NCBI GenBank assembly: GCA_026397955.1
Contig: JAPLTV010000014.1
Coordinates: forward strand, 62,001 to 126,000
Length of the DNA: 64,000 bases
DNA from: Verrucomicrobiota bacterium
GTDB lineage: Bacteria; Verrucomicrobiota; Verrucomicrobiia; Opitutales; UBA953
Direction: 5' to 3'
The notes beneath the pieces are model-generated. The model was not told where the DNA came from, searched no databases, and was given only the letters and a program-made list of their open reading frames with translations. The translations under genes were made by a program, and so were the position numbers. Shown here one piece after another: positions 7,811 through 18,595 of this stretch (positions are counted from its first letter, which is position 1; each line of letters starts with the position of its first letter).

Positions 7811-8230
7811 TCAGACCCCGAAATGCTTCTGCAGGGCCGTCTTGATGTCGAGCGGCACGAGGGCGGCCGACATGGGGCCTTGGGCTTCGCGCCAGGCGTA
7901 GACGGTGGTCAGGGCGCCCTTGGCGACGGCGCGTTCGCCGACCTTGGCTTCGAAGCCCCAGACGAGTTTCTTGTCGCCAATCTCGATCGGCGTCAGCGCA
8001 ACGGTGACGATGTCTTCGCGGTAAATCGGGAAAAGGAAATCACACTCGACCCGGACGCGCGGGAAACCGGTCAGCTTCGTACCTTCGGTACGGAGGAACG
8101 GGAGCTTGAGCTGGCGGAAGAGGGCCTCTTCGGTCGCCTCGACCCAGAAGAAGATCGTCGAGAAGTGCACGATGCCCGCGGCGTCGGTATCGGAGAAATT
8201 GGCGCGGTAATCTACCGTGAAGGGGGCCAT
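7811..8230 (-). CDS. Acyl-CoA thioesterase, YbgC/4-hydroxybenzoyl-CoA thioesterase family
   Basis: MAPFTVDYRANFSDTDAAGIVHFSTIFFWVEATEEALFRQL: hotdog thioesterase with the Y..R..F.DTDAAGIVHF motif; start set to ATG 8230 rather than the longer ORF. Confidence 0.88.
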   Translation of the reverse strand: MAPFTVDYRANFSDTDAAGIVHFSTIFFWVEATEEALFRQLKLPFLRTEGTKLTGFPRVRVECDFLFPIYREDIVTVALTPIEIGDKKLVWGFEAKVGERAVAKGALTTVYAWREAQGPMSAALVPLDIKTALQKHFGV

Positions 8231-8267: not shown

Positions 8268-9350
8268 TCAAGGCGCCTTCCGGCCGCCCTTGCGCAGCCA
8301 TGACACCGACGTGGCCGACCCTCCGGAGGCGGCCACGCAGGCCTGCAGGAAGGCCTGGGGCGGCTGCTGGACGGTGAACAGGTAGAGCCGCGGCCCCGCG
8401 CCCTGCGGGGCCTTGCCGAAGGCCTCCAGCCACTCGCGCTGCCAACGAGTATGCCCTTTCTGCGAACCGCCGACCTTGTGGTAAGAGCTGTCCGAATAGA
8501 CCAGCTTCGGCTCGCCCTTCTTCGCCTCGTAGAGGCGGACGCCGTCCTGGAAATCCGAGAAGACCACGAGGGCGTCATAAGGCTCGGCGAGCAGGCGATC
8601 CATCCAAGCGCCCAGCGATCCCTTCTCGCAAGCCGTCCGGACCTTCACCTGCACGGAACGACCCGCGGGCGTGAGCGTCTCCACCGCGGTCTGCGTCGGT
8701 CCCTCGCGCAGTCGCGGAGCGACGCCATGGAAGCGACGGCCATACACGACCATATCGCCCATGCCCACGACCCGGGCGCCGTCAAAGCGGAAGACGTCGG
8801 CATCGGGGAACTGCTTCCTGATTTCGGCTTCGACGCGCGGCAGGTAAGAGCGCATCGAGCCGGAGCAGTCTAGGTAGACCGCGACGCGCTTCGCCCGGAT
8901 GAAGGCGCCCATCACCGGGCGACCGACGAAGCCCGCGCGATTGCCCAAGCCGGCGCCGAGGCCGTTGCCGCCGAAGGAACCAAGGCCGCGTCCGAAGCCA
9001 CCCTTCCCTTGTCCGCCGGAGAGCCCAGCCAACCCCATCTCCGGCGTCAACGTCTTCATCGGTGGCAAGGCGAGTGTCGCGCTCGCCGACTTCGACGTCA
9101 GGCGCTTCTGTGGCGTCGGCACCTTCGGCTTACGCTGGACCGGATGCGTCGCGGCCGGACCGCCGGACCGGCCGCCGGCGACCGCATGGGACGTAAATTC
9201 CTGCTTCGGCGGCGCCGGCGGCGAACGGAACACGATCCAACATGCCGCGACGACGAGAAGCCCGTGCAGGCCAAGGGAGAGCGCGAGGCTGCGCCAGGAA
9301 CGGGCCGGTGAGCGATGTCGGCGGGCCACGGACGACTCAGTTTGATCCAT
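8268..9350 (-). CDS. vWA-like protein with TonB/TolA-like S-x3-H TM anchor and Gly-rich linker (paralog 1)
   Basis: SLGLHGLLVVAACWIVF TM with S-x3-H; RLTSKSASATLALPPM; Gly-rich linker; GRPVMGAFIRAKRVAVYLDCSGSM (D-x-S-x-S MIDAS-like); YDALVVFSDFQDG. Confidence 0.75.
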   Translation of the reverse strand: MDQTESSVARRHRSPARSWRSLALSLGLHGLLVVAACWIVFRSPPAPPKQEFTSHAVAGGRSGGPAATHPVQRKPKVPTPQKRLTSKSASATLALPPMKTLTPEMGLAGLSGGQGKGGFGRGLGSFGGNGLGAGLGNRAGFVGRPVMGAFIRAKRVAVYLDCSGSMRSYLPRVEAEIRKQFPDADVFRFDGARVVGMGDMVVYGRRFHGVAPRLREGPTQTAVETLTPAGRSVQVKVRTACEKGSLGAWMDRLLAEPYDALVVFSDFQDGVRLYEAKKGEPKLVYSDSSYHKVGGSQKGHTRWQREWLEAFGKAPQGAGPRLYLFTVQQPPQAFLQACVAASGGSATSVSWLRKGGRKAP

Positions 9351-9444
9351 GCCACCGAGGCTACGAACCCACGTCCCGCATCAACCGTGCGGACGCACAG
9401 GTTCACCTTGCATCCCGACCGCAGGATGACCCCAGGGAATGGCC

Positions 9445-10203
9445 TCAGTTCGCGGGCTTGGGCGGCCCGTCCGGACGAAGCCAATCGATGAGCTTGAACT
9501 TGCCGCCCGAGACGTCGGCCGACTTCTGCAAGATGCGGCTGGCGGGATTACGCGTGGAGAAAAGATAGAGCACCGGCGCCTTGCCGGCATTGGCTAGATC
9601 GAAGGAGCCGACCCAGGCATCTTCCCAAGCCTTCTCGGAAACGGTACGGTCATCCTTGATCTCCGCCTCAGGCAAGAGACGCTGACCTGCGTCGTCGACG
9701 TAAGTCTGTACGGTCGGCTTGCCCGGGCGCACCTGTAGCACCTGATCGTTGAAGTCGGAGAAGATCACCAGCGCGTCGTAGCGCTTCTCGGTCCGCAGGA
9801 TATCCACCCAAGCGCCGATGGAGCCGGTTTCGAAATTGCCGGCGTAGCGGGCCAGAATCGCCTTGCCCGTCGGACTGAGGCGGCTCGTGTCTAGACTGAC
9901 CTTAGGCCCCGAAGCCGCGGGCTTATGCGGCAGCACGGACGTCGCGCCGCCGCGGACGAGGGCGCCATCGACCCACACCTTGATGGCCGGGATCTTGAAG
10001 ACGTCGGCGTCGGGAAACTGCTTCCGGACCTCGGCTTCGACGGCGTCGAGGTAAGGCACCATGGAGTTGGAGCAATCCAGGTAGACCGCGATACGCGGAG
10101 CCGGCTCGTCGCCGCCCCCAGTCTTGCCGCCGGTCTTGGCCGCATGGGCGAAGGCGGCCAGCAGAGTCAGGACGACAATCGTGAAAATCTTGAGGGCTTT
10201 CAT
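9445..10203 (-). CDS. Secreted vWA-like protein (paralog 2)
   Basis: Signal peptide MKALKIFTIVVLTLLAAFAHA, then RIAVYLDCSNSMVPYLDAVEAEVRKQFPDADVF and GSIGAWVDILRTEKRYDALVIFSDFNDQV shared with the flanking paralogs. Confidence 0.75.
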   Translation of the reverse strand: MKALKIFTIVVLTLLAAFAHAAKTGGKTGGGDEPAPRIAVYLDCSNSMVPYLDAVEAEVRKQFPDADVFKIPAIKVWVDGALVRGGATSVLPHKPAASGPKVSLDTSRLSPTGKAILARYAGNFETGSIGAWVDILRTEKRYDALVIFSDFNDQVLQVRPGKPTVQTYVDDAGQRLLPEAEIKDDRTVSEKAWEDAWVGSFDLANAGKAPVLYLFSTRNPASRILQKSADVSGGKFKLIDWLRPDGPPKPAN

Positions 10204-10296
10204 CGGCGGGGGTGACATCAATGATGCCGGCGGTCGCGGGGCCTTGGAATCATATTATGTTTTTACGGCGTGGGGACTTCTCCCTAAGCACAAAAA

Positions 10297-10320
10297 AGGC
10301 GAGGCCGGGTGGCCTCGCCT
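10297..10320 (-). terminator. Rho-independent terminator after vWA paralog 3
   Basis: Perfect 10-bp stem AGGCGAGGCC/GGCCTCGCCT with T-run on the minus strand. Confidence 0.8.
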
Positions 10321-10343
10321 TTCAGTTACGACGCTGAATCGAC

Positions 10344-12323
10344 TCAGCGAGTCGGAGCGGCGCCGCGGGAATTGCCCGTGCTCGAGGCGGCCGGGCGGAA
10401 GCGCAGGACGGCGTTCGGCGCGGCGGCGGTGGCGGGCGCGGACATCTCGACGTTGAAGAAGCCGACCGCACCCTTGACCGGGGTCACCGAGATGACCTTG
10501 GTGGCGAGGGGGAAGCGGGCGTCCACGATGAGCATGCCGGGTTTGAGGTCGATCGAGCCGGAGACGTCGTCGATGACCTTGGAGTCCTTGGCGAGCGTAC
10601 CGACGGCCTGGATTAGGGGGGTGAACGCGAAGACCGCGTTGGTGGCATCTTCGGCCACCGGGGCGGAAATCGTCAGCTGCTTGTCGACGACGCGCTTCTT
10701 GCGCTTCTTCTCGGGATCGTCGGGGTCGATGATCTCCTTGAACGTCGGCATCGCCACGAGCGTGGCGCCATCGGGGATGCCGCGTCCGCTGACGGGCATG
10801 CCGACGTAAAGGTCGTCGTAGTTGTGCAGGTCGTTGACCGTGCTGGTGCCCTTCTTGGCGTTACCGAACTTGACCATGATGGCGCTGCCTTCGGAAGCGG
10901 AGACGCAACGCTGAAGGATGGTGCCAGGCTTGTTGCCGTAGGCGCGCGAGGTGCTGATCAGGTAGAGGCGCGGGCCCTTGTTTTCGCGGGCGCCGGCGAA
11001 GGCCTTCTCCCACTCGTCTTCCCACTTCTTCTCTTCGGGGAAACGCTTGTCGCCGCCGTTGTTGCAGACCAGGCGTCCGGAGGCGGCGGCGGTGAGGGGC
11101 TTGCTGAGGGTGATGCTGACGTTATCTTTGATCTCGGTGACGGTCGTACCCTGCGGGATACCGGAGCCGAGGATGACCATGCCGACGATGAGGCCGGTGG
11201 TTTCCTTACACTGGACGACCGGCTGGCCGGAGGCGCCGCCGCTCGCGATGAGTGTGACCGAGCGGGCGAAACCGCCGCCCTGATTGGTGCGATCGGAGAA
11301 GACGACGGGAGGGTCGGCGCGCATGCCTTTGTCCGGCTTGTAAGCCGAGACGCCACCGATCGCCTTAGTACGAATCTGACGGACGCCGTCCTGGAAGTCG
11401 GAGAAGATGATCAAGGCGTCGTAGGTGCGGTCGTCCTTGAGGATATCGAGCCAGCCGCCGACGGAGCCCGTCTTGAAGTTACTGGCGTACTTCTTGTAGA
11501 TAGCTCGCCCAGCGGTGGTGAGCTTATTAATATTTGTCTCGGTCGAGACGACTTCTCCCTTGGCGTTCTTCTTGGAGCCGCCGCCCGTCGGACGATTAAG
11601 GAAAGGCGTACCCTTAAACTTTTCACCACCGACGACTTCGTTGTCATGGACGTCGACGAAGACCCCATTGCTCAGGTAGACGTCGGCGTCCGGGAACTTG
11701 TCGCGGATTTCCGCTTCGACCCGGTCGAGGTAAGGAAGCATCGAGGCCGAGGCGTCGAAATAGACCGCCAAGCGCTGGGAGAAGATGTTCGCGCCCATGA
11801 CCGGGCGGGCGACGAAGTTCTTGCCGCCGCCGGAGCCCATACCTTTACCCGTGCCGATACCGCCGCCGGCGCCGCCGCCGAAGCCCTTGGAGGCACCTCC
11901 GGCCATCGCGCCAGAGATCATCGAGGACGCCGAAGCGGAGTTCGGCATGTCAGGCAGCGCGATCGAAGCCGAGGCGCTCTTGGAAGTGATACGCGTGGTC
12001 GTCTTGGCGAGCGACTTGACGTTCTTCGGCTTAACCTTGCGCTCAGTGCTCTTGACGCGCTCACCGCCGGAACCGCCGCCCGCGCCTGTGGCGAAGGTGT
12101 TCGGGTCCTTCTTGGCGTTATCGGTGACCGTGGAGACAACGAAGGCCGCGGCGATGAAGACCAGCAGGACGTGAATCGCCAGGGAGACCGAAAGACCGCT
12201 GGCGCCGATGCGCTGCCAGAACGTGCGCTTCATGCGCTTCGATCCGAGGGAGTCTGATTCGACCTTGGTACGTTCAGTCGGAGGGACGTCGCCGGACGGG
12301 GGCGGGGGAGTTTCTTCAGTCAT
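10344..12323 (-). CDS. vWA-like protein with TonB/TolA-like S-x3-H TM anchor and inserted/appended beta-repeat modules (paralog 3)
   Basis: SLAIHVLLVFIAAAFVV TM; RITSKSASASIALPDM; ARPVMGANIFSQRLAVYFDASASM; TYDALIIFSDFQDGVR; repeats with GSGIPQGTTVTEI...ITLSKP and SGRGIPDGATLVAM...LTISAP. Start set to ATG 12323. Confidence 0.75.
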   Translation of the reverse strand: MTEETPPPPSGDVPPTERTKVESDSLGSKRMKRTFWQRIGASGLSVSLAIHVLLVFIAAAFVVSTVTDNAKKDPNTFATGAGGGSGGERVKSTERKVKPKNVKSLAKTTTRITSKSASASIALPDMPNSASASSMISGAMAGGASKGFGGGAGGGIGTGKGMGSGGGKNFVARPVMGANIFSQRLAVYFDASASMLPYLDRVEAEIRDKFPDADVYLSNGVFVDVHDNEVVGGEKFKGTPFLNRPTGGGSKKNAKGEVVSTETNINKLTTAGRAIYKKYASNFKTGSVGGWLDILKDDRTYDALIIFSDFQDGVRQIRTKAIGGVSAYKPDKGMRADPPVVFSDRTNQGGGFARSVTLIASGGASGQPVVQCKETTGLIVGMVILGSGIPQGTTVTEIKDNVSITLSKPLTAAASGRLVCNNGGDKRFPEEKKWEDEWEKAFAGARENKGPRLYLISTSRAYGNKPGTILQRCVSASEGSAIMVKFGNAKKGTSTVNDLHNYDDLYVGMPVSGRGIPDGATLVAMPTFKEIIDPDDPEKKRKKRVVDKQLTISAPVAEDATNAVFAFTPLIQAVGTLAKDSKVIDDVSGSIDLKPGMLIVDARFPLATKVISVTPVKGAVGFFNVEMSAPATAAAPNAVLRFRPAASSTGNSRGAAPTR

Positions 12324-12804: not shown

Positions 12805-14049
12805 TTAGCCGCCGCCGGTCATCTTGGTGATGAGCGCGATGAGCGGCAGGAACATCGCGAGCACGATCGCGCCGACCACGACCGCGAGGAAGACGATGAG
12901 GACGGGTTCGATGATCGAAGTCAGCGCGGTGACGGCGTTATCCACTTCTTCGTCGTAGATGTCCGCGACGCGGTTGAGCATCTCGGGCAGCTGGCCGGTT
13001 TCTTCGCCGACCTGAATCATCGAGGTCACCATCTGCGGGAAGACGCCGGACTGCTCGAGCGGCACGGAGAGCGGCTCGCCGTCGCGGACGCGGTCATGCA
13101 CGCGCTCCAGCGACTTCGCGATGACGACGTTATCGAGCGTGTCGCGGGTGATCGAGATGGACTGCAGGATGGGGACGCCGGACGCCATGAGCGTTCCGAA
13201 CGTGCGGGCGAAGCGCGAGACCGAGACGATCTGCACGAAGGTGCCGACCTTGGGCAGGCGGAAGATAATCTGGTCAAAGATCTGCTTGCCCTTCTCCGTC
13301 GACAACCAGGTCTTCAGCCCGAAGTAAATGCCGAACACGAGGATCGGGGTGGCCCACCAGTAAACCGTCAGCAGCTGGGAGATGCCGATGACGAACTTCG
13401 TGAGAGGAGGCATCTCGGTCTTCTGGCCGTCGAGGAGCTTCTGGAAAGAAGGGACGACCTTCACCATCAGGATGTAGACGATGATGATGGCCACGGACAT
13501 AACGACGCCCGGGTAGACCATCGCGGACTTGACCTTCTTCTGGATGCGCTCGGCCTTTTCGCGAAACTTCGCAAGACGGTCGAGGACCTTGTCGAGCACG
13601 CCGCCCGCTTCACCGGCGCGGATCATGTTGACGAAGAGCTTGTCGAAGACCTTCGGGTGAGCCTGCATGGCTTCGGAAAGGTTATTACCTTGGGAGACGC
13701 TCTCGGCGACGTTGGCGAGGATGACCTTGAAGGCCGGGTTGCGCTCCTGCTTCGTAATCAGTTCGAGGGCGCGCAGGAGAGGCAGGCCAGCGACGATGAG
13801 CGTCGCCAGCTGGCGGGTCATGATGGTGACGTCATTCTGGCTGACCTTCGCCCCAAAGGAGAAGCCTCCCTTGGACGGGGCGGCCGGGGCGGAGGCGGGC
13901 TTCGCCGAGCCGGCGTCGTTGGCCAAAGTCGTGACCATCAGACCCTTCGCCATCAATTTCTGGCGGGCCTGTTCGTCATTGGTGGCTTCGATCTTGCCGG
14001 AGGTCTGCGCCCCGTTGCGATCGATGGCGGTGTACTTGTAGTCGGGCAT
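12805..14049 (-). CDS. pilC: Type IV pilus / type II secretion inner membrane platform protein (PilC/GspF)
   Basis: MPDYKYTAIDRNGAQTSGKIEATNDEQARQKL...LATLIVAGLPLLRALELI...VGEETGQLPEML; canonical T2SF family. Confidence 0.93.
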   Translation of the reverse strand: MPDYKYTAIDRNGAQTSGKIEATNDEQARQKLMAKGLMVTTLANDAGSAKPASAPAAPSKGGFSFGAKVSQNDVTIMTRQLATLIVAGLPLLRALELITKQERNPAFKVILANVAESVSQGNNLSEAMQAHPKVFDKLFVNMIRAGEAGGVLDKVLDRLAKFREKAERIQKKVKSAMVYPGVVMSVAIIIVYILMVKVVPSFQKLLDGQKTEMPPLTKFVIGISQLLTVYWWATPILVFGIYFGLKTWLSTEKGKQIFDQIIFRLPKVGTFVQIVSVSRFARTFGTLMASGVPILQSISITRDTLDNVVIAKSLERVHDRVRDGEPLSVPLEQSGVFPQMVTSMIQVGEETGQLPEMLNRVADIYDEEVDNAVTALTSIIEPVLIVFLAVVVGAIVLAMFLPLIALITKMTGGG

Positions 14050-14076
14050 GGGAGTGGTGGGGTGTTGTGTGAAAGG

Positions 14077-15759
14077 TTAGGTATACTTAAGGACTTCCTC
14101 GATGGAGGTATGGCCGTCGAAGATGCAGCGCAGGCCGTCTTCGCGGAGCGGACGCATGCCCGACTCGATCGCCTTCTGCTTCAGGACGAGCGTCGGGGCC
14201 TTCTGGGTGATGAGCGAACGAAGCTGGTCATTGATCGTCATCAGCTCGAAGAGGCCTTGGCGGCCCTTGTAGCCGGAGCGGTTACAGTCAGGGCAACCCT
14301 TGCCGTAGTAGAACTTCTTGTTGGCGATCTCGAGCGCATCGACGTCCAGCATATTGATGACGTCCTTGTCCGGCTCGTAGGCGGTACGGCAGGTCTTGCA
14401 CACGCGACGGAGTAGACGTTGGGCGAGCACGCCTTCGAGGGAAGCGGAGATAAGGAACGGCTCCAGGCCCATGTCGATGAGTCGGGTGACGGCACCGGGG
14501 GCGTCGTTAGTGTGGAGCGTGGAAAGCACGACGTGGCCGGTCAGCGAAGCCTGCACGGCGATCTGCGCGGTCTCGAGATCTCGGATTTCACCGACCATGA
14601 TGGTGTCCGGATCCTGTCGGAGGAACGAGCGGAGCGCCGCGGCGAAGGTCAGGCCGACCTGGTGGTTGATCGGCACCTGCATGATACCTTCCACTTCGTA
14701 TTCGACGGGGTCCTCGGCGGTCAGAATCTTGACGTCCTCGGTATTCACCTCGCGGAGCGCCGAGTAAAGCGTGGTCGTCTTGCCCGAACCAGTCGGACCG
14801 GTGACGATGAAGATACCGTTGGGGCGTCCCACCATGCCGCGGATGCCTTCCTTAATGTCATCCTGCATCGAGAGGGCCTCGAGGCTCAGGTTGACGACGG
14901 TCTTGTCCAGGATTCGAAGCACCACGGACTCGCCGAACTGCGTCGGCAGGGTCGACACACGAAGGTCGATCTGGCGGCCGCTGATGGTGGTCTTAATGCG
15001 TCCGTCCTGGGGCACGCGGCGCTCCGCGATATTGAGCGAAGAGAGGACCTTGACGCGGGCGATGACGGCCGAGGCGAGATTCTTGGGCGGCGGGGCCATT
15101 TCGTACAACGAGCCGTCGATGCGGAGACGGATGCGGAACTCGTGTTCGAAGGGCTCGAAGTGGATGTCCGATGCCTTGGCCTTAACACCTTCCTGAAGGA
15201 CGAGGTCGACGAAACGGATGATCGGTGCTTGGCTGGCCTGCTTGGTGACATCCTCGTCGGTGACGGCAGCGGTATCGACTTCGCCGAATTCACCGAGCAG
15301 GTCTTCCATCGAGGAAGAGGTGGCTTCGCCGTAGACGCGGGTGACGGCGGCTTCGACCTGGGCGGGGTCTGCCACGGCCAGTTCGATATCCTTCTGCAGG
15401 ATGAAGCTTAGTTCGCTGATGACGGACGAGTTGAAGGGATCCTTCGCAAGCAACGTGAGCTTGCCGGCTTCGTCGGCGACGGGCAACACGACGTACTTGT
15501 GGGCCTGCGGTGCCTTGAGCAGCTTGGTCAGGGCTTCGCCCGGGTCGGCTGGAACGACGGAATAGAACTGGACCTGAAGGTGGTCGGCGATGGCCTGCAG
15601 GATGGTCGGACGGTCGGCCAAGCCGGCGTCCACGAGGCTGTCGCTGAATGACTTGCCGGTGGTCGCGTGGGACTCCCAGATCTCCTCGGCCTGGGCAGGC
15701 GTCACGAGGCCTGCCTCGAGGGCGATATCACGGATCACGTCACTATGGTCGTCGAACAT
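14077..15759 (-). CDS. pilB: PilB/GspE-type assembly ATPase (paralog 1)
   Basis: [15 protein letters not shown] Walker [21 protein letters not shown], and CxxC...CxxC zinc module (CKTC / CPDC). Confidence 0.92.
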
Positions 15760-15792
15760 GGGAATGGAGGGGGAAAGGGGTTGGGTTGAGTT

Positions 15793-16866
15793 TTAGCGGG
15801 CCGCTGCTCCGCCGCGCATGCGCTCACGCATGGCTTCGGGGTTCTGGCAGTAATTGAAGACTTCCTCCTCGGACACGGTGCCTTGGAAGAACAGGGCTAG
15901 CAAATCGCTGTCGAGAGTGCGCATGCCGCGGGCGCCGCCGGTCTCGATGTCGGTGAGGAGCTGGTAGGTCTTACCCTCGCGGATCTTCGCACCAATGCCG
16001 TCGGTACGCACCATGACCTCGAAGGCCGCAACGCGCTTATCGTCGGTGGTGTGCAGCAGACACTGCGAGATGACGGCGCTGAGAGAGGTGGAAAGCTGGG
16101 CGCGGATCTGGTCGCGAGCGGACGCCGGAAAGGCGTCGATAATGCGGTCGATTGTGCGCGTCGCCCCAGAGGTATGGAGCGTGCCGAGGACGAGGTGGCC
16201 GGTCTCCGCGGCGGTGACGGCGGCCTCGATGGTCTCGAGGTCGCGCATTTCGCCGATGAGGATGACGTCGGGGTCCTGACGGAGCGCGGCGCGGACGCCT
16301 TCCGAGAAAGAAGGCAGGTCGACGCCAACTTCGCGCTGGGTGACCAGGCAGTTCTTATGCGCGTGGGTATACTCGATCGGGTCCTCGATCGTGATGATGT
16401 GTCCCTGCTCGTTCTCATTGATCCAATTGATCATCGAGGCGAGCGTGGTCGACTTACCGGAGCCGGTCGGGCCCGTGACGAGCACCAGGCCGCGGGCGCG
16501 CTTGAGCATGTCCTTGATGACCGGAGGGAGGCGCAACTGCTCGAGCGTGAACATGGCCGAAGGCAGCAGGCGCAGCACCATGCCGTAGCCACCGAGGCCG
16601 CGGAACGCGTTGACGCGCAGACGAGTCTTATTGCGAAAGGAGAAGGCGAAATCGCAGCCGCCGTCGGCGTCAAGTCGGGCGGTCTGGGCCGGCGGAACGA
16701 CGGATATAACCATCGCCTTGGCGTCGGCTTCCGTGAGTGCCGGGCCATCGATGGAGACGATGTCGCCGTTGACGCGAAGGCTGGGGGAGCGGCCCACGCG
16801 GATGTGCAGGTCCGAAGCGCCATTCTCGATCATGGCCTCCAGCAGCTGATTCATCTCGTAGGCCAT
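15793..16866 (-). CDS. pilT: Type IV pilus retraction ATPase PilT
   Basis: MNQLLEAMIENGASDLHIRVGRSPSLRVNGD...GPTGSGKSTTLASMI...GEMRDLETIEAAVTAAETGHLVLGTLHT. Confidence 0.92.
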   Translation of the reverse strand: MAYEMNQLLEAMIENGASDLHIRVGRSPSLRVNGDIVSIDGPALTEADAKAMVISVVPPAQTARLDADGGCDFAFSFRNKTRLRVNAFRGLGGYGMVLRLLPSAMFTLEQLRLPPVIKDMLKRARGLVLVTGPTGSGKSTTLASMINWINENEQGHIITIEDPIEYTHAHKNCLVTQREVGVDLPSFSEGVRAALRQDPDVILIGEMRDLETIEAAVTAAETGHLVLGTLHTSGATRTIDRIIDAFPASARDQIRAQLSTSLSAVISQCLLHTTDDKRVAAFEVMVRTDGIGAKIREGKTYQLLTDIETGGARGMRTLDSDLLALFFQGTVSEEEVFNYCQNPEAMRERMRGGAAAR

Positions 16867-16870
16867 GGGC

Positions 16871-18595
16871 TTAGATGACGTCGTCGGCGACGGTGGCTCC
16901 GAGCACTTCCTCGATGGTCGTCATGCCGGAGGCGACCTTGCGCTGACCGTCCTCGCGCATGGTGCGCATGCCGGCCTCGCGGGCCTTACGACGGAGCTCG
17001 ACGAGATTGGAGCCGCCGTAGATCATCTCCTGGACCTCCTCGGTGATGACGAAGAGCTCGAAGACGCCGCGACGACCCTTGTAGCCGCGCTCGCCGCACT
17101 TGGGGCAGCCGGCACCCTTCATGGGCGTGGCGCTGGCGAGATCCTGCTCAGTCATGCCGATGGAGTAGAGTTCCTTGGCGGTCGGCTTGTAGGGGGCCGC
17201 ACAAGCCTGGCAATTACGACGCACCAGTCGCTGGGCGAGCGCGCCGCGCAAGGCCGCAGACACGAGGAACGGCTTGACGCCGATGTCCACGAGACGGGTG
17301 ACGGAGCTGACGGAGTCGTTGGTGTGGAGGGTCGAGAACACCATGTGGCCGGTGAGGGCCGCGTTGATCGCGATTTCCGCAGTCTCGAGATCTCGGATTT
17401 CACCAATCATGACGATGTTCGGCGCCTGACGAAGCATGGCGCGAAGGGCGGCGGAGAACGTCATGCCGACGTCGCGCTTCACCTGCACCTGATTGATGCC
17501 GGCCATCTGGTATTCGACGGGATCCTCGACGGTGATGATCTTGCGGTCCGGCTTATTGATGTAGTTCAGCGCCGAATAAAGCGTGGTCGACTTACCCGAA
17601 CCGGTCGGACCGGTGACGAGGAAGACGCCGTCCGAGCCCGAGATCAGGCCCTGGAACTTGGCTTGGTCGTCGGCGAAGAAGCCGAGCTCAGGGAGACCCA
17701 GCTTGAGGCCTTCCTTGTCGAGGATTCGCATGACGATCGATTCGCCGTAGACGGTCGGCAGGACCGAGACGCGCAAGTCAATGTCGCGGCCGCCGGTGCG
17801 GGCTTGGATGCGTCCATCCTGCGGGATGCGCTTCTCGGCGAGTGAGACTTCCGCCATGAGCTTGAGACGGGAGATGATTGAAGGCTGGAGGCGCTTGGGC
17901 GGGCCCTTCATCTCCTGCAGCACGCCGTCGACGCGGAAACGGACGCGAAAACGCTTCTCGAGAGGCTCGAGGTGGATGTCGGAAGCCTTCCGACGGATGG
18001 CGTCGACGATGAGCGAGTTGACGTAACGGATAATCGGCGCGTCGTCTTCCTTGACGTCGCCGCCCTGCGGGAGCTCGACGGCCAAGCCGTCATCGCCGCC
18101 CTTACCAAGGATGTCGGAATAGGAGGCGGACCCACCGATTTGCCCCCCGTTATAACAGCGTGAAATGGCTTCCTTGAGCGCGTCCGGAGGAGCCAGCTTC
18201 GGGTTGATGGCAAGCTTGAGCACGCGCGAGACGGAATCGATGGTCTCGGTGTCGAGCGGATCGGAGATGGCCAGCAGCAGTTCGTTGCCGTCCATCTGCA
18301 ACGGGAGGATGTTGTGCTTCTCGGCCTGTTCGCGGCTGATGAGCTTGAGGATATCGTCGGAGGGAGCGACCTGCGCGACATCCACGATTTCCATGTCGAA
18401 CTCTTGGCTAAGGGCGGCCGTGATCTTGGTCCAAGCGACCTTGTTGGTCTCGACCAGTTTGGCGATGGCCAGGGTGTCGGCATTCTGGCCGTCCGGGACG
18501 GGCTCGATGGCGGCACGGGCCTCTGTCACGTCGGCAGGGGACACCAGTCCCTTGTCCTGAATGAATTGGATGACGTAGTCGTCGGCGGTCGTCAC
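16871..18595 (-). CDS. PilB/GspE-type assembly ATPase (paralog 2)
   Basis: [53 protein letters not shown] / CPKC zinc module. Confidence 0.92.
   Translation of the reverse strand: MTTADDYVIQFIQDKGLVSPADVTEARAAIEPVPDGQNADTLAIAKLVETNKVAWTKITAALSQEFDMEIVDVAQVAPSDDILKLISREQAEKHNILPLQMDGNELLLAISDPLDTETIDSVSRVLKLAINPKLAPPDALKEAISRCYNGGQIGGSASYSDILGKGGDDGLAVELPQGGDVKEDDAPIIRYVNSLIVDAIRRKASDIHLEPLEKRFRVRFRVDGVLQEMKGPPKRLQPSIISRLKLMAEVSLAEKRIPQDGRIQARTGGRDIDLRVSVLPTVYGESIVMRILDKEGLKLGLPELGFFADDQAKFQGLISGSDGVFLVTGPTGSGKSTTLYSALNYINKPDRKIITVEDPVEYQMAGINQVQVKRDVGMTFSAALRAMLRQAPNIVMIGEIRDLETAEIAINAALTGHMVFSTLHTNDSVSSVTRLVDIGVKPFLVSAALRGALAQRLVRRNCQACAAPYKPTAKELYSIGMTEQDLASATPMKGAGCPKCGERGYKGRRGVFELFVITEEVQEMIYGGSNLVELRRKAREAGMRTMREDGQRKVASGMTTIEEVLGATVADDVI

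Follow-up and report, generated by a model that had tools for sequence, protein, structure and literature searches.

The Ton and Tol systems have long been regarded as the main envelope systems that are run by ExbB/TolQ motors via a transducer of the TonB/TolA type. The residues Ser16 and His20 of the TonB transmembrane (TM) helix contact ExbB in cryo-EM, the Ser/His pair being set against TM1 of ExbB/TolQ (PMC12215075), and the D-box strand is held by the ExbD pair in systems of the TonB/TolA type (PMC10907165). Force transducers carrying a vWA domain were predicted in June 2025 beside TPR-tolQ-tolR-tolR genes in PVC bacteria (Williams-Jones et al., PMC12204202), so that the force-transducer principle is not new. 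A preliminary description of the locus studied here had not recognised it as a named system, a view that is out of date since vWA force transducers of such a layout are described in that publication.

The locus is part of a stretch of 64,000 nucleotides from a Verrucomicrobiota bacterium (the window). By their layout, its genes are members of the class that Williams-Jones et al. described, the founder proteins of which come from Tichowtungia. Both groups of proteins combine a TM helix of the SHLS type containing conserved Ser and His, a disordered linker and a C-terminal vWA domain. Whereas the genes described in 2025 stand together with genes encoding TPR, one tolQ-like and two tolR-like proteins, the window cluster lies 18-20 kb away from the motor genes, consists of three paralogs including a soluble vWA copy and encodes vWA domains that are too divergent for Pfam; moreover, its anchor module also bears PA14 and toroid heads and sometimes a SAM domain. 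The terms PA14 and squalene are absent from the main text of PMC12204202. Neither that main text nor literature searches covering openly accessible main texts yielded heads of the PA14 or toroid kind, versions with SAM, a cluster apart from its motor or a soluble copy. Head-swapping on one module, a cluster separated from its motor and a soluble vWA copy go beyond the main text of PMC12204202.

The anchored window proteins share with TonB and TolA the N-terminal TM helix with Ser-x3-His, the periplasmic linker, the C-terminal head and a motor partner of the ExbBD/TolQR type. In contrast to TonB and TolA, the linker is Gly-rich instead of Pro- or Ala-rich, the window-type motor operon has two different ExbDs, and the TonB/TolA C-terminal domain is lacking, as no Pfam or NCBIfam match to it above the cut-off was obtained with the window paralogs. 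The TolQ-only TPH-vWA proteins (PMC12204202) likewise have a vWA domain tethered at the motor, but they contain an ExbD-like Asp helix and no Ser-x3-His, whereas the window proteins have Ser-x3-His and a motor operon with ExbD genes.

The three paralogs and their vWA-like heads

The three paralogous genes are present at positions 8268-12323 of the window, corresponding to 70.3-74.3 kb of contig C36 of the source genome, and the frames and shared core previously assigned to them were borne out. Paralog 3 (10344..12323, on the reverse strand as are the other features of this paragraph; 659 aa) comprises an acidic/proline cytoplasmic N-terminus, a TM helix with SLAIH (S47, H51; codons at 12171..12185), which is the TonB/TolA-like Ser-x3-His, a Gly-rich linker and a vWA-like domain. 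The same arrangement of TM helix with SLGLH (S25, H29; codons at 9264..9278), Gly-rich linker and vWA-like domain is found in paralog 1 (8268..9350; 360 aa), while paralog 2 (9445..10203; 252 aa) consists of a signal peptide and a vWA-like domain and is devoid of the TM anchor and the Gly linker. A gene encoding a thioesterase of the 4HBT superfamily (7811..8230) is located 37 bp past paralog 1 and is a conserved neighbour only inside the genus. Since a hairpin resembling an intrinsic terminator is positioned at 10294..10323, immediately 3' of paralog 3, this gene probably forms a transcript separate from that of paralog 2, paralog 1 and the thioesterase gene. The order paralog 3-(2)-1-thioesterase is kept in dozens of relatives; paralog 3 orthologs are conserved within the genus, and a comparison of the relatives' loci confined paralog 2 to one sub-clade.

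At the level of sequence, the core common to the three paralogs is far beyond chance. An alignment of 48 relatives revealed 11 residues that are identical in all of them (D161, S163, S165, G247, W249, D251, Y258, F264, D266, F267 and D269 in paralog 1 numbering), including the D-x-S-x-S residues D161, S163 and S165 and the Asp of S-D-F (D266). The AlphaFold2 model of paralog 1 showed a single TM helix at residues 19-42 and an alpha/beta domain at 145-355, the latter with pLDDT values mostly above 90, connected by a linker that is disordered from about 45 to 140. The vWA-like fold with D-x-S-x-S that had been proposed for this core agrees with the vWA-like alpha/beta model and with profile-profile comparisons. 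Foldseek gave weak matches to solved vWA domains, the vWA of CLCA1 being found with an E-value of 0.06, a probability of about 0.7 and a TM-score of 0.47 on the target, and no match to viral models. Evidence from profiles for vWA membership is firmer than that from Foldseek: the window-type head matched an intermediate vWA type of another family with an E-value of 1.8e-13, this intermediate type matched heads of which two are recognised as VWA by Pfam with 5.9e-7, and the direct comparison of the window-type head with the partly Pfam-recognised VWA heads yielded 3.4e-5. The predicted vWA domain of the three paralogs is divergent, as Pfam did not recognise it (best 12.5 bits) and searches of Pfam, NCBIfam and PDB sequences provided no name for the head. 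Profile matches of the window proteins to PDB entries were rejected as glycine-linker artefacts.

The cleavable signal peptide previously suggested for paralog 2 is of the Sec type and ends with AHA-A, as judged by eye. Paralog 2 looks like a derived vWA head that has no anchor and would be secreted and soluble. Paralog 3 contains additional beta repeats (VGMxVxGxGIPxGTTV) in and behind its vWA core, according to a model of moderate confidence. These repeats of the gene at 10344-12323, in longer form VGMxVxGxGIPxGTTVxxI...ITLS, were gained in its sub-clade, as orthologs from sister clades are without them, and they resemble repeats of adhesin-like beta repeat proteins.

The anchor-linker module and its association with ExbB-ExbD-ExbD genes

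The S-x3-H anchor of paralogs 1 and 3 was recovered as SLGLH and SLAIH, and its conservation in orthologs, which the preliminary description had put forward as a check, was confirmed. H29 of paralog 1 is present in 44 of the 48 aligned sequences, the four exceptions being of the anchorless paralog 2 type; TM positions near this His vary among the 44 anchored members, each of which retains it. When the comparison was widened to 121 hydrophobic regions at N-termini, among them the signal peptides of paralog 2, the His occurred in 89%. Compared with SHLS, the window family has Ala in place of Leu and is missing the last Ser. The TM helix is followed by a conserved linker box R-I-x(8-10)-LPD (RITSKSASA-ALPD), in which the single-chain AlphaFold2 model of paralog 1 contained no beta strand.

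A profile of the module, consisting of TM helix, linker and R-I-x...LPD box and built from just three window-type sequences, detected modules with PA14, toroid and Pfam-recognised vWA heads, with E-values of 1e-7 to 1e-14 for most of them. The module is present in 106 of 388 genomes of a phylum-wide Verrucomicrobiota sample. The source genome encodes two more vWA paralogs (contigs C101 and C44); a further two proteins, on C5 and C21, share their N-terminus but differ in the head.

Gene-by-gene inspection identified module genes together with TPR-TPR-ExbB-ExbD1-ExbD2 genes in six loci of several families, directly downstream in five of them; in other families, TPR-TPR-ExbB-ExbD-ExbD is followed by module genes of the same orientation. 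When the 388 genomes were searched with a profile of the ExbD2 type, the closest type (E < 1e-50) was found in 31 genomes, each of which contains the module. It is located within 1.1 kb of exbD2 in 21 of these 31 phylogenetically non-independent genomes and within 7 kb in 23, compared with 0.06 and 0.41 genomes, respectively, that are expected under random placement; the maximum for 1.1 kb adjacency in 200,000 simulations was three genomes. The same adjacency was detected in 24 additional genomes of a more distant ExbD2 tier.

The motor operon of the source genome is located on C36 at about 46.9-53.1 kb and comprises genes for a TPR protein, a second TPR-like protein, ExbB, ExbD1 and ExbD2, the last three showing 42-54% identity with their counterparts in intact operons. 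There is no transducer gene beside this operon, and the vWA cluster lies about 18 kb off on the same contig. A motor-to-cluster spacing of 18-20 kb is found in four genomes of the window's family, which would fit a short-range relocation of the transducer genes away from the motor. The part of the operon ahead of ExbB-ExbD-ExbD (C36 about 46.9-51.3 kb; L048:1900-6320) encodes a large secreted-looking TPR protein and the second TPR-like protein.

The preliminary description had asked for ExbBD/TolQR homologs in the same genome, and five ExbB loci were detected, on C36 and at four other places. C57 carries an ExbB-ExbD-transducer locus with an SVAVH anchor of its own, and TonB_C proteins are encoded on C102 and C16, the latter near an ExbB locus. 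The TPR-TPR-ExbB-ExbD-ExbD operon on C36 is the most likely partner motor of the window paralogs; the other candidates (C57, C16, C107 and C93) are partly accounted for, namely C57 and C16. Ser and Trp/Tyr are present in TM1 of the C36 ExbB, but the TonB-contact pair Ser34/Trp38 was not counted because the spacing is one residue longer.

Proposed force transduction and alternative explanations

Taken together, we assign a probability of about 0.78 to the reading that paralogs 1 and 3 are proton-driven force transducers of the inner membrane, which dock on ExbB-ExbD-ExbD and extend a vWA head to a target in the outer membrane or cell wall. It is from the observed domain layout, conservation and genomic association that we infer physical coupling, force and target. 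Points that speak against this reading are the distance between cluster and motor in the source genome, the four further ExbB loci, the incompletely kept SHLS motif, the missing strand in the modelled linker box and the weak Foldseek matches. By analogy with TonB and TolA, the N-terminal helix would dock on a dedicated ExbB-ExbD-ExbD proton channel via Ser/His, and the linker box would be the likely handle gripped by the ExbD1/ExbD2 pair. The Gly-rich linker may then span the periplasm and pass force to the vWA head, which would reach the putative target. Paralog 2 might act as a free periplasmic vWA head, perhaps as a competitor or partner.

The pilC, pilB, pilT and pilB genes are located beside the cluster at positions 12805-18595 of the window, and PilB-PilT-PilB-PilC is found upstream of paralog 3 in nearly every genus member with a long enough locus. 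This neighbourhood would suit vWA proteins that are parts of the type IV pilus machinery, similar to PilY1 with its vWA-like N-terminal part. Such a role is very unlikely, as pilC and paralog 3 are separated by tRNA-Met and about 480 bp and no pil genes were present around the paralogs on C101, C44, C5 and C21 or near the motor operons of other families; PilY1-type proteins are also not known to have a motor-type Ser-x3-His anchor. The thioesterase gene is absent from the same surroundings, and both kinds of genes were given little weight as functional partners because they are neighbours only within the genus. The thioesterase after paralog 1, along with the TolA-like anchor, might instead indicate that the cluster belongs to Tol-Pal or stands in for it, with TolQR-driven stabilisation of the outer membrane and the thioesterase as YbgC. 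The enzyme previously termed YbgC-type does belong to the 4HBT superfamily and adjoins paralog 1, but it is not a YbgC equivalog: its score of 28.6 bits is far under the NCBIfam equivalog cut-off of 141.35, so that the YbgC neighbour is weak as an argument for a tol-pal link. Considering also the separate transducer locus with its SVAVH anchor on C57, the TonB_C proteins on C102 and C16 and the absence of a TolA/TonB C-terminal domain from the window heads, we regard a Tol-Pal function as improbable.

The proteins might also be mere membrane-anchored vWA scaffolds or adhesins that pass no force, their S-x3-H being inherited or coincidental. The loss of Leu and Ser of SHLS would be compatible with this explanation, as would the fact that coupling is deduced from sequence and genomic context. 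It was judged to have a very small chance of being correct, given the His in 44 of 44 anchored members amid varying TM positions and the module adjoining ExbB-ExbD-ExbD across many families. The conserved Ser/His and this adjacency argue for the motor coupling advanced in the preliminary description, the interpretation of which stands in this part but not in its claim of an unnamed system or its YbgC argument.

Different heads on one anchor-linker module

In other families, the module is joined to a Pfam-recognised vWA domain, a Pfam PA14 domain or a toroid resembling squalene cyclases and prenyltransferases, and a cytoplasmic SAM domain precedes the TM helix in one locus of module genes. The same anchor on other kinds of heads implies that a single motor may power several exchangeable tools. 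With about even odds, a single proton-driven ExbB-ExbD-ExbD motor may serve interchangeable trans-envelope transducers in Verrucomicrobiota, which share the anchor-linker module and differ in their vWA, PA14 carbohydrate-binding-like or squalene-cyclase-like toroid heads, sometimes with SAM and with soluble heads as regulators, thereby forming a toolkit distinct from Ton and Tol. If one anchor module, placed behind a single type of motor, indeed carries several unrelated heads, trans-envelope force would serve more tasks. The findings supply concrete genes and residues that are testable in genetically tractable Verrucomicrobiota.

The module proteins with PA14-like heads are encoded on C5 (17.7-19.1 kb; L046:5690-7111) and C21 (L047:3175-4461) in near-duplicate gene neighbourhoods on the two contigs. 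Since the two proteins are 57% identical, C21 may represent either a duplicated block or contamination by a contig of a related species. A SAM domain is unusual on a TonB-like protein. In the locus L091:6229-10323, three successive genes start with a cytoplasmic SAM domain. In the first two, this domain precedes the motor anchor module, to which a vWA or a PA14 head is attached; the third encodes a DUF5077-like head.
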